Part shown: positions 18,088-26,569 of the stretch, one piece after another
How positions within the stretch are numbered: the stretch's first letter is position 1
How the letters are laid out: every line of letters begins with the position of its first letter
Notes under the pieces: model-generated
Told to the model about the DNA's origin: nothing
The model's database searches: none
The model's input: only the letters and a program-made list of their open reading frames with translations
Position numbers and translations under genes: made by a program
Source: a virus
Strand: one strand, 5' to 3'
Length of the DNA: 43,220 bases
Virus record (IMG/VR): IMGVR_UViG_3300050014_000338
Location: 1-43,220 of that record

Positions 18088-18705
18088 TTACTCCTCCCGA
18101 AGATGGTACGCGAGAATCTCAGCCTGTTTTTCCCGAGCAGCCCCAGCAGCAGCCCAAGCAGCAGCCCAAGCAGCAGCCCCAGCAGCATCCCGAGCAGCAT
18201 CCCCAGCAGCCCGAGCAGCAGCCCGAGCAGCATCCCGAGCAGCATCCCCAGCAGCCCAAGCAGCATCCCCAGCAGCATCCCGAGCAGCATCCCGAGCAGC
18301 AGCCCAAGCAGCATCCCCAGCAGCAGCCCAAGCAGCATCCCGAGCATCCCGAGCAGCATCCCCAGCAGCAGCCAACTCATCGCTGTTAATCCGCCCGTTG
18401 ACGTAGTCTCGCGCTGCTTTGATGGCCAGTTCTGGGCGTTTGTCGTCCGAGTATTTCCGCCAGATAGGCAAAACCTGTTCGGCAAAGTCGGCAGCCATAA
18501 GTCGAGCCACCTTGTCGCAATTCTCGGCTGTAGCCACCATCGCCCATAGGGTATCGTCAAGGCCGTTGATTTCAAGGACGGTCAAGATGTTAATTGGTGT
18601 ATCGTCGCCGTATTCCTCGCGTGATAGCGCCTTGCGGAGGAACTCGTAGCGCGATTTGCAAGCTGATGCTTTGCGCAGGAGTGCAAATGTGGTAGTTAGT
18701 TTCAC
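18088..18705 (-). CDS. Alanine-repeat protein, Imm5-like
   Basis: GTG start at 18705 with AAAGG at 7 bases. The N-terminal 110 residues (LEINGLDDTLWAMVATAENC, MAADFAEQVLPIWRKY..RPE, AIKAARDYVNGRI) follow the pattern of putative immunity proteins of the Imm5 type, including A-x-W and the acidic/Pro segment. Residues about 112-193 are an Ala-rich repeat (units such as DAARDAAGDAAWAA), encoded by an almost pure 9-15 bp DNA repeat. The end (EKQAEILAYHLRE) is helical. Phages carry such repeat proteins of unknown function. Assignment to Imm5 is from memory of the pattern. Confidence 0.55.
   Translation of the reverse strand: MKLTTTFALLRKASACKSRYEFLRKALSREEYGDDTPINILTVLEINGLDDTLWAMVATAENCDKVARLMAADFAEQVLPIWRKYSDDKRPELAIKAARDYVNGRINSDELAAAGDAARDARDAAWAAAGDAAWAAARDAARDAAGDAAWAAGDAARDAARAAARAAGDAARDAAGAAAWAAAWAAAGAAREKQAEILAYHLREE
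18132..18373. repeat. Short tandem repeat array inside the Imm5-like gene
   Basis: About 240 bp built from units of CCCAGCAGC, CCGAGCAGC and CCCAAGCAG-type, with occasional ATC insertions; all six frames are open for long stretches because the unit lacks stops. Unit lengths are multiples of three, so gains or losses would keep the frame of the alanine-rich segment. It is expected to be slippage-prone. Confidence 0.75.
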
Positions 18706-18765: not shown

Positions 18766-18813
18766 TGCCCAGATAACGCGCTGGGCTCGCGGTTTAGTGG
18801 GATATTGCACTAA
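18766..18813 (-). repeat. 48-bp leader repeat, copy 1
   Basis: 44 of 48 bases identical to 19433-19480. Contains hairpin GCCCAG / CTGGGC (18767-18772 with 18781-18786) followed on the plus strand by the palindromic site at 18797. Two of the four differences between the copies are paired with each other in the hairpin (A-T here, G-C in copy 2), which is compensatory. Confidence 0.7.
18797..18810 (-). promoter_or_regulatory. Dispersed palindrome, GGG variant (copy 1)
   Basis: GTGGGATATTGCAC, with outer arms TTTAGTG / CACTAAA perfect over 7 bp. It overlaps the stop of the DUF551-like gene at 18810-18812 and lies upstream of the Imm5-like gene. Confidence 0.55.
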
Positions 18814-19432: not shown

Positions 19433-19480
19433 TGCCCGGATAACGCTCCGGGCTAGCGGTTTAGTGGGATATTGCACTAA
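19433..19480 (-). repeat. 48-bp leader repeat, copy 2
   Basis: Matches 18766-18813 at 44 of 48 bases. On the minus strand the hairpin GCCCGGA / TCCGGGC ends immediately before the AGGAG ribosome site of the 19420 gene, so it lies in the mRNA leader if transcription starts upstream. Confidence 0.7.
19464..19477 (-). promoter_or_regulatory. Dispersed palindrome, GGG variant (copy 2)
   Basis: GTGGGATATTGCAC, identical core to 18797-18810, 44 bases upstream of the 19420 start. Confidence 0.55.
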
Positions 19481-23108: not shown

Positions 23109-25241
23109 ATGCTTTCGGAGCACTCCGCCAAGTCGGAGACCGGCCTATGGATTCCCGAATACCACTCCCTTTCCCAGATCGACAGCTTCAACTCCCACTT
23201 CAAGACGCTGGCGGAAAAAGCGGAACGTGCCGACGAAGACGTGGAGTCCGCTCTTGGTCCGGATGAATTGAACTGGATTCAGAATGAGTATGCCATCTGC
23301 GCCTGTGACGACCGCTACTGGATGGAGAGCTATTTCTACATCAATGACGACAGCAAGCTGGTCCGATTCAATGCTCGATTCTCTCAGTCCATGTTGATCG
23401 ACACCTGGGCCGAACGCGAAGAGGCCGGGCTTCCCATTGAGCAACAGATCCTCAAGGCTCGCCAGCAGGGAATCTCGACGCTGGTCGAAGGGGCCATCGC
23501 CAAGAAAGTAAACTTCGGCATCGGCATCAAGGCGGCGGTAGCCTCCTACGATCAGGACGCCTGCGAGCGCATGGGCGGCATGATGGAGCTTGCCTTCAAC
23601 GAGATGCCCTCATGGATGAAGGCCAACCCTACAAGCGACCGCGCCGGGTCACTGAAGGCATTCGCTGCTACCAATACGCGCTTGACCTTGTATTCGGGCA
23701 AGAAGGCTTCAGGTATCGCCCGTGGTGACACTCCGTCAGTCCTTCATATCTCCGAAGTCTCAATCTTCCCTGACGCATCGAACGTGATTGAGAAGTCTCT
23801 GTTTCAGGCCGTCCACCCTTCCCCCAACACGTTCATGATCCTCGAGTCGACGGGCAACGGAAACACGGACTGGTGGGCGCGCACGTGGTACTCCAGCAGG
23901 GACTACTGGGCATCTGGCGGGGCAAGGCTCCAGCCGATATTCTTCCCATTCTTCATCGCCGTCGACTTGTTCCCCACTCCGACGTGGCGCCGCGAGCACC
24001 CCGTACCAAGGGACTGGCAGATGCTCACCGAGACTCGGCAGATGATGGCCAAGGCTGCAGAGTACGTCCACCAGACGCCTTTGATTCGCAAGTACGCGGG
24101 CGACGGTTGGAGGATGCAGGACTTTCAAGCCTACTACTGGGAGCAGGAGTTGAAGGAAGCACGGCGCAAGGGCGAAGAGAATTCGTTCTATCAGGAGCGC
24201 CCGATGGACGACAACGAAGCCCTTCGGCCAAAGAAAGACCTTGTATTCAATCTGATGGAGGTCAAGAAACAGGAGGAGACGCGCTCAGATTACACGGTCT
24301 GGTCAATCATCGGCGAGCAGGTTCAGGAGCGATACTGCCCCGATCCGGTGGACATCGACTACGATGCCGACAGGTTCCGAGTGAGCTATGACGGCAACAT
24401 CACCGACCTTCGCGGGAGGATGGCAAAGACGTTCTGGTGGGAGTTTGTTCCGATCAAGCAGCCTGTTGAGACGGGCATCGACCTGTTCGACGTGGAGCGC
24501 AAGTGCATGATCTACCGCTGGCCGGAAGCTGGGTACACCTACGGAATCGGCGTGGACAACTCAGGCGGAACAGGAAAGGACGGCACCTACCTCAGCGTGA
24601 ACGGGAAAGCGATCTACGGGAATGAGCCCGACTTTCAGGCTGCGTGCTGGTGGTCGAACAAGACTGACCCCTCGCTGGTGCATCCGTACATCATGGCGCT
24701 GGCATCACTCTATGGGTCCGAGATGCCTGATGGAACTCACCCGATTGTGGGCATCGAGCAGGTCTATGGCCTGGGCGACACGCCGCAGATTCAGATGCTT
24801 TCGATGGGCTGGAACAAACGCAACTTCTACCACTTTAGCCGACTGGACGGCATGAACCCCGAGCACGACAAAAAGAAGTCAAAGCGCATGGGCTGGTACA
24901 CGACGGAATGGAGCCGTAACTTCATGCTCTCGCTCTACAAGACGGCCGTAGAGAATCACTGGCGCAAGGTCAATGACCCATTCCTGCTGAAGCACGAGAT
25001 TCCCGCGTTCCAGATCGACAAGACAGAAGGCGGCAAGACGCGGTGGGACCATCAGGACGGCAAGCGGGACGACAGGATCTTCGGAGACGGCATCGCCTAC
25101 TGCATCATGAACGATACGGAAAGCATGACCCGGCGGGTGCTGAACAAGTTTGAGGGCGACGAGGAAGAGATTGAGATTGATTATGGGTATCCAGTGGGCA
25201 TAAACTCAACACTTGAAGAGATGATGGGAGCGGAACTGTGA
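23109..25241 (+). CDS. terL: Large terminase subunit (ATPase-nuclease)
   Basis: 710 residues from ATG 23109. Walker A variant KARQQGIST (about 116-124) and Walker B VLHISEVS (about 211-218, acidic pair SE) mark the DNA-translocation ATPase. FMILESTGNGN matches the following coupling region. GIGVDNSGGTGKDGTYL (second half) is the first acidic motif of the RNase H-like nuclease, followed by VGIEQVYG and a DDRIFGDGIAYC end. It packages phage DNA into the prohead through the portal. The frame continues upstream of ATG without stop to ATT 23073, which has a better GGAGAGG, so the true start may be non-standard. The last 51 bases are repeated downstream. Confidence 0.9.
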   Translation: MLSEHSAKSETGLWIPEYHSLSQIDSFNSHFKTLAEKAERADEDVESALGPDELNWIQNEYAICACDDRYWMESYFYINDDSKLVRFNARFSQSMLIDTWAEREEAGLPIEQQILKARQQGISTLVEGAIAKKVNFGIGIKAAVASYDQDACERMGGMMELAFNEMPSWMKANPTSDRAGSLKAFAATNTRLTLYSGKKASGIARGDTPSVLHISEVSIFPDASNVIEKSLFQAVHPSPNTFMILESTGNGNTDWWARTWYSSRDYWASGGARLQPIFFPFFIAVDLFPTPTWRREHPVPRDWQMLTETRQMMAKAAEYVHQTPLIRKYAGDGWRMQDFQAYYWEQELKEARRKGEENSFYQERPMDDNEALRPKKDLVFNLMEVKKQEETRSDYTVWSIIGEQVQERYCPDPVDIDYDADRFRVSYDGNITDLRGRMAKTFWWEFVPIKQPVETGIDLFDVERKCMIYRWPEAGYTYGIGVDNSGGTGKDGTYLSVNGKAIYGNEPDFQAACWWSNKTDPSLVHPYIMALASLYGSEMPDGTHPIVGIEQVYGLGDTPQIQMLSMGWNKRNFYHFSRLDGMNPEHDKKKSKRMGWYTTEWSRNFMLSLYKTAVENHWRKVNDPFLLKHEIPAFQIDKTEGGKTRWDHQDGKRDDRIFGDGIAYCIMNDTESMTRRVLNKFEGDEEEIEIDYGYPVGINSTLEEMMGAEL
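25191..25241 (+). repeat. 51-bp direct repeat, copy 1 (end of terL)
   Basis: Identical over 51 bases to 25501-25551. It covers the last codons of terL, the TGA, and the ribosome site (GGGAG) plus GTG start used by the next gene. Confidence 0.95.
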
Positions 25242-25513
25242 CAGCTGGATTCGAGAAGTGGTGGAGCGAGCAGGGCCGCTTTATGGACCCCGATACCGAA
25301 GACGTGCATTGGTACGACAAGCGGGAAGCTCTCGCTCGTCTAGCCTTCGATGAGGGCGTGAAGATTGGGATGGCGATAGCGGGGAATTACGTTGCCGATG
25401 ATTACATTTATCCGACATGTGTGCGATTTGCCAACGGAAGAACGGTCACACTCCTCAAAGATCCGATTCCACATCTGGAAATATCTTCCACAGAGGTTAA
25501 CCAGTGGGCATAA
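25238..25513 (+). CDS. Inserted small gene between direct repeats (91 aa)
   Basis: GTG 25238 overlaps the terL stop (GTGA) inside repeat copy 1; the stop lies inside copy 2. Residues include an acidic/Trp N-terminus (GFEKWWSEQGRFMDPDTEDV), a helical middle and a strand-rich end. No family recognised. Everything unique to this gene lies between the two 51-bp repeats, so it looks like a single-gene insertion that kept the terL translation-coupling signal. Confidence 0.65.
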   Translation: MTAGFEKWWSEQGRFMDPDTEDVHWYDKREALARLAFDEGVKIGMAIAGNYVADDYIYPTCVRFANGRTVTLLKDPIPHLEISSTEVNQWA

Positions 25514-25551
25514 ACTCAACACTTGAAGAGATGATGGGAGCGGAACTGTGA
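25501..25551 (+). repeat. 51-bp direct repeat, copy 2
   Basis: Perfect copy of 25191-25241, starting 310 bp after it. It contains the stop of the inserted gene and the GTG (25548) of the Mom-like gene. Recombination between copies would remove the insert exactly and join terL to the Mom-like gene. Confidence 0.95.
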
Positions 25552-26114
25552 ACGACTACCCTAAATCCGATTTCTCGATTTATTCGGTATCTCCAGCGAG
25601 TCGAACAGAGGCGGAGCCGCTCGTGCGGGCGCATTATTTGAAACGTTGGCCAGGTGTCGTAACCGCCACCTTGGGAATGTGGAAAGGCCCGTTCTTGGTT
25701 GGCGTAATCGTGTTCGCGCTTCCACCCCGCGAAACAGCGAAACGATACCGGGTGCATGTCGCGTGGGAGTTGGCAAGGTTGTACATCATGGACTCCGAGC
25801 CGTTTAACTCTGAGACGTGGTTTATGGCGAAGGCTATCAAGTGGGTGCGCGGCACATTCCCGGCAGTTGAAATGCTAGTGTCTTATGCCGACCCATCGGC
25901 GGGACACGCGGGCATCATCTACAAGGCTGCAAACTGGCGGCAAGATGGCCGTACCGATCAAGAACGGAAGACGCCGCGCTTCGACTATGGAGTAGGTGGT
26001 AAAGTGTACTCCCGGCGATCTCATGTCCCAAATGGAGCAACAGTGGACAGGATACCGAGAGTTTCAAAGTTTCGATTCACCTATCGACTCAGGAAAGAAA
26101 CGGTGGCATCATGA
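25548..26114 (+). CDS. Mom-like DNA adenine modification protein
   Basis: 188 residues, GTG start in repeat copy 2. The motif chain matches phage Mu Mom and relatives: HYLKRWPG..., LGMWKGPFLVGVIVFALPP, then VAWELARLYIMDSEPFNSET, followed by LVSYADPSAGHAGIIYKAAN. ELxRL, S-x-ADP and G..GIIYKAANW are the most telling. Mom, a GNAT-fold enzyme, converts adenines in phage DNA to a carbamoylmethyl form that blocks many restriction enzymes. Location beside the terminase would let DNA be modified before packaging. No Com-like translational activator was recognised next to it. Confidence 0.75.
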   Translation: MNDYPKSDFSIYSVSPASRTEAEPLVRAHYLKRWPGVVTATLGMWKGPFLVGVIVFALPPRETAKRYRVHVAWELARLYIMDSEPFNSETWFMAKAIKWVRGTFPAVEMLVSYADPSAGHAGIIYKAANWRQDGRTDQERKTPRFDYGVGGKVYSRRSHVPNGATVDRIPRVSKFRFTYRLRKETVAS

Positions 26115-26569
26115 GCTTTATTATTCTTCCCGGCGAGCAGAAAGACGACTGGGCATTCGAGAACGGCAAAGAGGTCCTCTGGTATCTGGAGAACCCCATG
26201 ACGCGTGTCGTCCAGATCACCGCACCAATGGCCCCCATCCCTTACGGCTTTAACCGTCACAAGACGAATCAGCCAAAGGAGATGGACCGCGTATTCCGCA
26301 AACTGCACGAGCAAGAGCGGGACAAGAACGCGCAGGTCATCGAGAAGATGTGGAGCCGTGGCCGAGCTCAGTACGAGGCCTTGCGTGACAGGCTGAATCA
26401 ACGGCTCGTATCGGCTGACACGAAGGTATGGGAGAAGGCATTCATCCGCGAATCGTTGCGGCTGATGAGCGAGCGCGACAATGAGGCTCAGAAGAATAAT
26501 GTCTATGGTATTTCGGCGATGGAAGAGTCTCCCGCGCCACTTGAAGGCGCAAGAACGAGGGTGAACTAG
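26111..26569 (+). CDS. Hypothetical protein (152 aa)
   Basis: ATG 26111 overlaps the Mom-like stop. The N-terminal part is strand-rich (IILPGEQKDDWAFENGKEVL) and the middle is a long charged helix with coiled-coil character (RVFRKLHEQERDKNAQVIEK). It lies between the Mom-like gene and the portal, in the packaging operon. No family recognised; it might be a virion or packaging accessory. Confidence 0.55.
   Translation: MSFIILPGEQKDDWAFENGKEVLWYLENPMTRVVQITAPMAPIPYGFNRHKTNQPKEMDRVFRKLHEQERDKNAQVIEKMWSRGRAQYEALRDRLNQRLVSADTKVWEKAFIRESLRLMSERDNEAQKNNVYGISAMEESPAPLEGARTRVN

Follow-up and report, generated by a model that had tools for sequence, protein, structure and literature searches.

Two apparent cargo genes, ORF91 and a mom-like DNA-modification gene (mom), lie in series between the terminase large subunit gene (terL) and a conserved downstream gene (g26111) in the window. 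The window is the whole 43,220-nucleotide stretch of IMG/VR virus record IMGVR_UViG_3300050014_000338 and represents a soil phage, probably with a host in the Acidobacteria. The two cargo genes probably came to stand in series through an out-of-register, non-homologous joint between a genome carrying terL–ORF91 and a genome carrying terL–mom. The evidence comprises an exact repeat of the terL end, a start position common to both cargo genes, sites that are empty or differently filled in related phages, and ORF91 homology that ends at the joint.

Anatomy of the duplicated terL end

The end of terL, including its TGA stop (25239–25241), is present twice in the window as a perfect 51-bp direct repeat with a period of 310 bp (Table 1). 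An exact repeat of this length far exceeds chance. Extended to 57 bp, the repeat matches at 96%, and four of the six added bases are identical, which is the chance level. No third copy is found in the window on either strand with up to 18 mismatches allowed over 51 bp. The GTG codons of ORF91 and mom are both at repeat position 48. These observations agree with the sequence-only reading, which described the terL end, its stop and the GTG start as exactly duplicated and both downstream genes as starting at the same position of the repeat. It also placed the 91-residue gene between the repeats. Unique DNA of 259 bp does lie there, but ORF91 itself begins in copy 1 and ends in copy 2.

Table 1. 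Features at and around the duplicated terL end in the window.
Feature	Positions	Strand	Remarks
terL, terminase large subunit	23109..25241	+	710 aa, no intein; PHROG terminase large subunit, E 1e-9
Repeat copy 1	25191..25241	+	final 17 terL codons, stop included; SD GGAG 7 nt before GTG 25238
ORF91, apparently captured cargo gene	25238..25513	+	probably trimmed 3' by copy 2; 62–64% identical to 133-aa L016 protein
Insert, unique DNA	25242..25500	+	right joint, apparently non-homologous, at 25500/25501
Repeat copy 2	25501..25551	+	holds ORF91 stop, plus SD and GTG for mom
Possible mini-ORF, 15 codons	25504..25551	+	terL tail peptide MGINSTLEEMMGAEL; putative
mom-like DNA-modification gene, second cargo gene	25548..26114	+	PF25680 Mom, E 1e-27; phrog_1384, E 3e-30
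g26111, conserved downstream gene	26111..26569	+	starts on or beside terL stop in empty relatives

ORF91 has 91 codons, and its GTG start overlaps the terL TGA (GTGA). Its final codons, CAG TGG GCA TAA, come from copy 2 and do not lie in the terL frame. The stop (25511–25513) is 34 nt ahead of the mom GTG, so the coupling between ORF91 and mom is not a tight overlap. The proposal that translational coupling was left unbroken holds for terL and ORF91, where the GTGA overlap is kept. It holds only in part for mom, which keeps a Shine–Dalgarno sequence (SD) and GTG but loses the stop-to-start overlap. In the terL frame, a TAA at 25498–25500 closes off copy 2. A possible mini-ORF in copy 2, with an SD-like GAGGT 6 nt upstream of its GTG (25504), would end on the mom start, as its stop overlaps that GTG.

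The same structure is present in other records. Two IMG/VR contigs (L001 and L002) are each 100% identical to the window over 14,440 bp, both repeats included. A contig from an Acidobacteria MAG (L046; PMYF01000175.1, 'fen_180 73.20110800_E2D') is 100% identical over 8,462 bp, again with both repeats. As these three records have the same structure without a base difference, an assembly error private to the window is unlikely. Long stretches of the four filled records are identical, and a single population may lie behind them; they are therefore weak as independent evidence. A repeat of this size can give rise to a loop in an assembly graph, and ORF91 would be such a loop, or a product of a mixed population, if the structure were an artefact. 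This is highly improbable given that all four records, a separately deposited MAG contig among them, agree on the single-copy structure, that the window contains no N, and that the ORF91 family, which has a homologue in another phage, is genuinely coding.

Elsewhere in the window, a 48-bp direct repeat (18766–18813 and 19433–19480, 92% identical) precedes the starts of minus-strand genes, one copy upstream of each. One copy is also found at L004:486-528 (97.7% over 43 bp), though the L004 terL is only ~76% identical in nucleotides. This repeat is likely a shared upstream regulatory element. A repeat array with a 12-bp period (18112–18397) lies within a minus-strand ORF (18088–18705) and encodes an Ala-rich, AAxDAA-type tract.

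The terL–g26111 site in related phages

The nearest cultured relatives of the window terL are Tunturiibacter phage terminases, with 30% amino acid identity. Among 396 genomes of the phylum of G009, terL matched the known MAG alone. A DNA search of phage records gave no match. Profile scans with terL and with g26111 converge on one small set of contigs from IMG/VR, together with two MAG contigs, and the scan with g26111 for further junctions added no members.

Within this set, terL contains in-frame intein-like insertions at two different sites. In the terL genes of L009 and L011 (L009:3014-5920 and L011:6001-8907), the insertion is at about residue 121, at ARQQG/ST. In that of L047 (L047:4222-7491), it is at residue 215, before SEVS, and has LAGLIDADG and weak Hint matches. 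The window terL contains neither insertion. The portal genes of L004, L005, L006, and L009–L011 contain an insertion of ~750–850 bp near portal nt 600–735, which is absent from the window, L003, and L007.

The terL–g26111 site is empty in about six lineages, and the stop and start there overlap or nearly so. In L004–L007, L008, and L009–L011, the terL stop and the start codon of the g26111 homologue overlap (GTGA or ATGA). The gap between terL and the next gene is 22 bp in L012 and about 10 bp in L034. Three lineages are filled. L003 contains an RNA ligase (L003:8130-8840; PF09414, E 9e-18), L047 contains a 74-aa gene with an ATGA overlap at both ends (L047:7488-7712), and the window contains ORF91 and mom. 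This comparison of empty and filled sites, which the sequence-only reading had called for, bears out its claim of gene gain at the end of terL. The gain, described there as recent, is probably recent relative to the divergence of terL. In the terL tree, L003 is the sister of the window and has other cargo, and the cargo state requires at least two changes on well-supported (starred) branches. The terL–g26111 junction therefore appears to be a spot for cargo genes (morons).

In all three filled lineages, the start codon of the first cargo gene lies on the terL stop, and GGAG precedes it by 7 nt. An SD of GGAG at 7 nt is common to ORF91, mom, the L003 ligase, the L047 cargo, and g26111 of L004, L007, and L009. 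Because the cargo genes start on the terL stop codon, they would use the ribosome-binding site in the terL tail. The first cargo gene thus appears to adopt a start signal that, in most of the empty phages, belongs to g26111.

As with morons, the extra genes lie between neighbours that are adjacent in relatives (L004–L011, L012, and L034). The insert is bounded by direct repeats that are single in relatives, with two copies here and one in L003. The nearest relatives with an empty site are about 76–78% identical in terL nucleotides, and none is near-identical. Consensus promoter and terminator matches are no more frequent than in shuffles, so the cargo would be read with the terL operon and would not be a classic autonomous moron.

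The window and L003 also share the terL tail. All of the final 18 codons are identical (18/18), against a background of 62% at conserved residues. The last 57 nt form the longest exact run within terL, and none of 5000 shuffles placed such a run terminally. Taken together, the codons and the run point to a short tail tract common to two phages with different cargo, and this tract appears to have been exchanged or inherited together. The terL tails of L004, L008, and L012 differ synonymously from that of the window at about background rates. This speaks against a general constraint beyond the SD, and the SD part alone of the tail looks constrained. On the same ground, nucleotide constraint by itself was rejected as the explanation for the tail identity. 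L004 and L007 do not differ over the first 2056 nt of terL and have four differences over the last 77, which points to a mosaic edge close by.

The cargo genes and their joint

The mom product scores 97.4 bits against the Mom profile (cut-off 27.1). Its homologues are 52–86% identical and occur in unrelated phage neighbourhoods. That mom is itself cargo at this site was overlooked in the sequence-only reading. The only relatives of ORF91 are in L016 and L017, which belong to a different phage type, and the relative adjoins a candidate clamp-loader-like gene (judged from the translation by eye). ORF91 has no Pfam or PHROG match and no tblastn match in phages, and among the 396 genomes it again matched the known MAG alone. 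Its AlphaFold model has a pLDDT of 47.5 and is too poor to use. Between ORF91 and its relative, dN is 0.21 and dS is saturated, which indicates that the family is coding and conserved. GC3 is 0.57 in ORF91 and 0.59 in mom, below terL, the portal and the capsid genes, versus 0.71–0.76 in most neighbours. The gene g26570 is likewise low (0.59), so composition lends mild support to import. Both ORF91 and mom are apparently imports.

The L016 relative has 133 residues and a Cys4 tail, and ORF91 is without the tail part. Because of this tail, a Com-like zinc protein was considered for ORF91. In Mu, such a protein is encoded upstream of mom. PF10122 does not match ORF91, and the control is likewise silent. 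The homology of ORF91 to the L016 protein stops at residue 88, the codon of which straddles position 25501. Judged from this single homologous family (L016/L017), repeat copy 2 has probably truncated the 3' end of ORF91.

The left joint is the GTGA overlap of terL and ORF91. Beside the right joint there is no notable matching tract, which argues that at least one step was non-homologous. An alternative course is that ORF91 was simply inserted at an existing terL–mom junction, with the 51-bp target duplicated by staggered break repair or by template switching to the tail. Such an insertion would give the same anatomy from one event in one genome, and copy 2 is the clean 51-bp duplicate that it would leave. 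For a target-site duplication, 51 bp would be long. The 259 bp contain no transposase or other mobile-element gene, the insert having one 91-aa ORF without a family match. Insertion alone also leaves unexplained why the ORF91 homology ends at the joint, though insertion of a fragment could explain it. This course is the main rival, and it is unlikely.

The sequence-only reading had described the gain as homology-mediated. In that model, ORF91 arrived on a piece that already bore a terL tail joined to it, and this tail recombined with the resident one. Both copies of the tail and that of L003 are identical, and a precedent has been proposed for LRRHood and Island3 (PMC3029335). No donor was found, and the model only moves the problem, as the joint between ORF91 and the tail must first arise without homology. 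Homologous integration as the formative step is very unlikely. As the ORF91 homology ends at copy 2, the term 'homology-mediated' is not supported for that step, and the most that homology in the tail could have done is to spread the product afterwards.

The preferred and simplest reading is a non-homologous joint between two filled genomes, in which the parents, the order of events, the manner of joining and the expression of the cargo are inferred. In the ancestral state, terL and g26111 would overlap stop to start (RTGA), with the SD within the terL tail. In several lineages, foreign genes would have entered this site, each with its start on the terL stop. A piece of DNA whose end lay within an ORF91-type gene would then have been joined, out of register and without homology, to a copy of this site, at a point 51 bp upstream of the start region of the second cargo gene. 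The setting was probably recombination or replication between co-infecting relatives, one with terL–ORF91 and the other with terL–mom. This joint would have shortened ORF91 and created a second terL tail, which provides an SD and GTG for mom itself. Once formed, the repeats would allow deletion or spread through ordinary homologous recombination.

In contig scans with terL, g26111, the tail, and mom, no phage was found with terL–ORF91–g26111 alone or terL–mom–g26111 alone. The exact-tail scan of IMG/VR recovered seven contigs, none of which (0/7) has the tail and mom without ORF91. Precise loss of the gene, as had been suggested, is mechanistically reasonable, and no loss product is among these seven contigs. 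A broader view, which is unlikely, is that the terL tail serves as a standing dock, where cargo would adopt its ribosome-binding site and start codon. Out-of-register recombination between phages would copy the tail, so that cargo would stack in series, gaining a new start signal at every step, and would be shed when the tails recombine.

Comparison with known systems

The window appears to preserve one step of phage gene gain. The joint is still legible, as are the duplicated start signal and the shortened end of the gene, and there are empty and differently filled sites for comparison. It suggests a route into a packed late operon, where a gene would be readable at once by taking a start signal that lies within the gene before it. 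A Mom-type anti-restriction gene is also recorded here from the terL region of a phage that probably infects Acidobacteria.

Morons typically carry their own promoter and terminator (PMC3029335). The present cargo resembles morons and conserved boundary sequences in that extra genes lie between the neighbours of relatives, with a short conserved boundary where the cargo changes. It differs in that promoters and terminators are not above chance and the cargo would use the ribosome-binding site in the terL tail. The start-associated sequences of Cluster K mycobacteriophages, a 13-bp motif in 11–19 copies (PMC3203893), are a looser analogue. They too are repeated SD-containing sequences directly before start codons, but they are dispersed, whereas the window has one gene-tail duplication and no dispersed family.

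LRRHood contains a 1.35 kb insert of four genes between 29-bp direct repeats (PMC3029335). In both cases, inserted genes lie at a gene end between short direct repeats that are single in relatives; here there is one 259-bp insert and the repeat is 51 bp. Island3 gene 68 encodes 85 aa, has no homologues, and is missing in a relative that is near-identical (Pope et al. 2011, PMC3029335). On its two sides lie ~50–60 bp that repeat the 3' end of the preceding gene, and the authors left open whether it was gained, or lost through recombination in the repeat. The likeness is close: one small gene between copies of the preceding gene's 3' end. The Island3 repeat supplies the C-terminus of both genes, whereas in the window ORF91 reads the repeat in a frame other than that of terL and the repeat, unlike in Island3, also contains the start signal for the gene that follows. 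The present case is a clear snapshot of an already known way in which phages acquire extra genes. It is of the same kind as Island3 and LRRHood, and the out-of-frame reading and the embedded start signal distinguish it.
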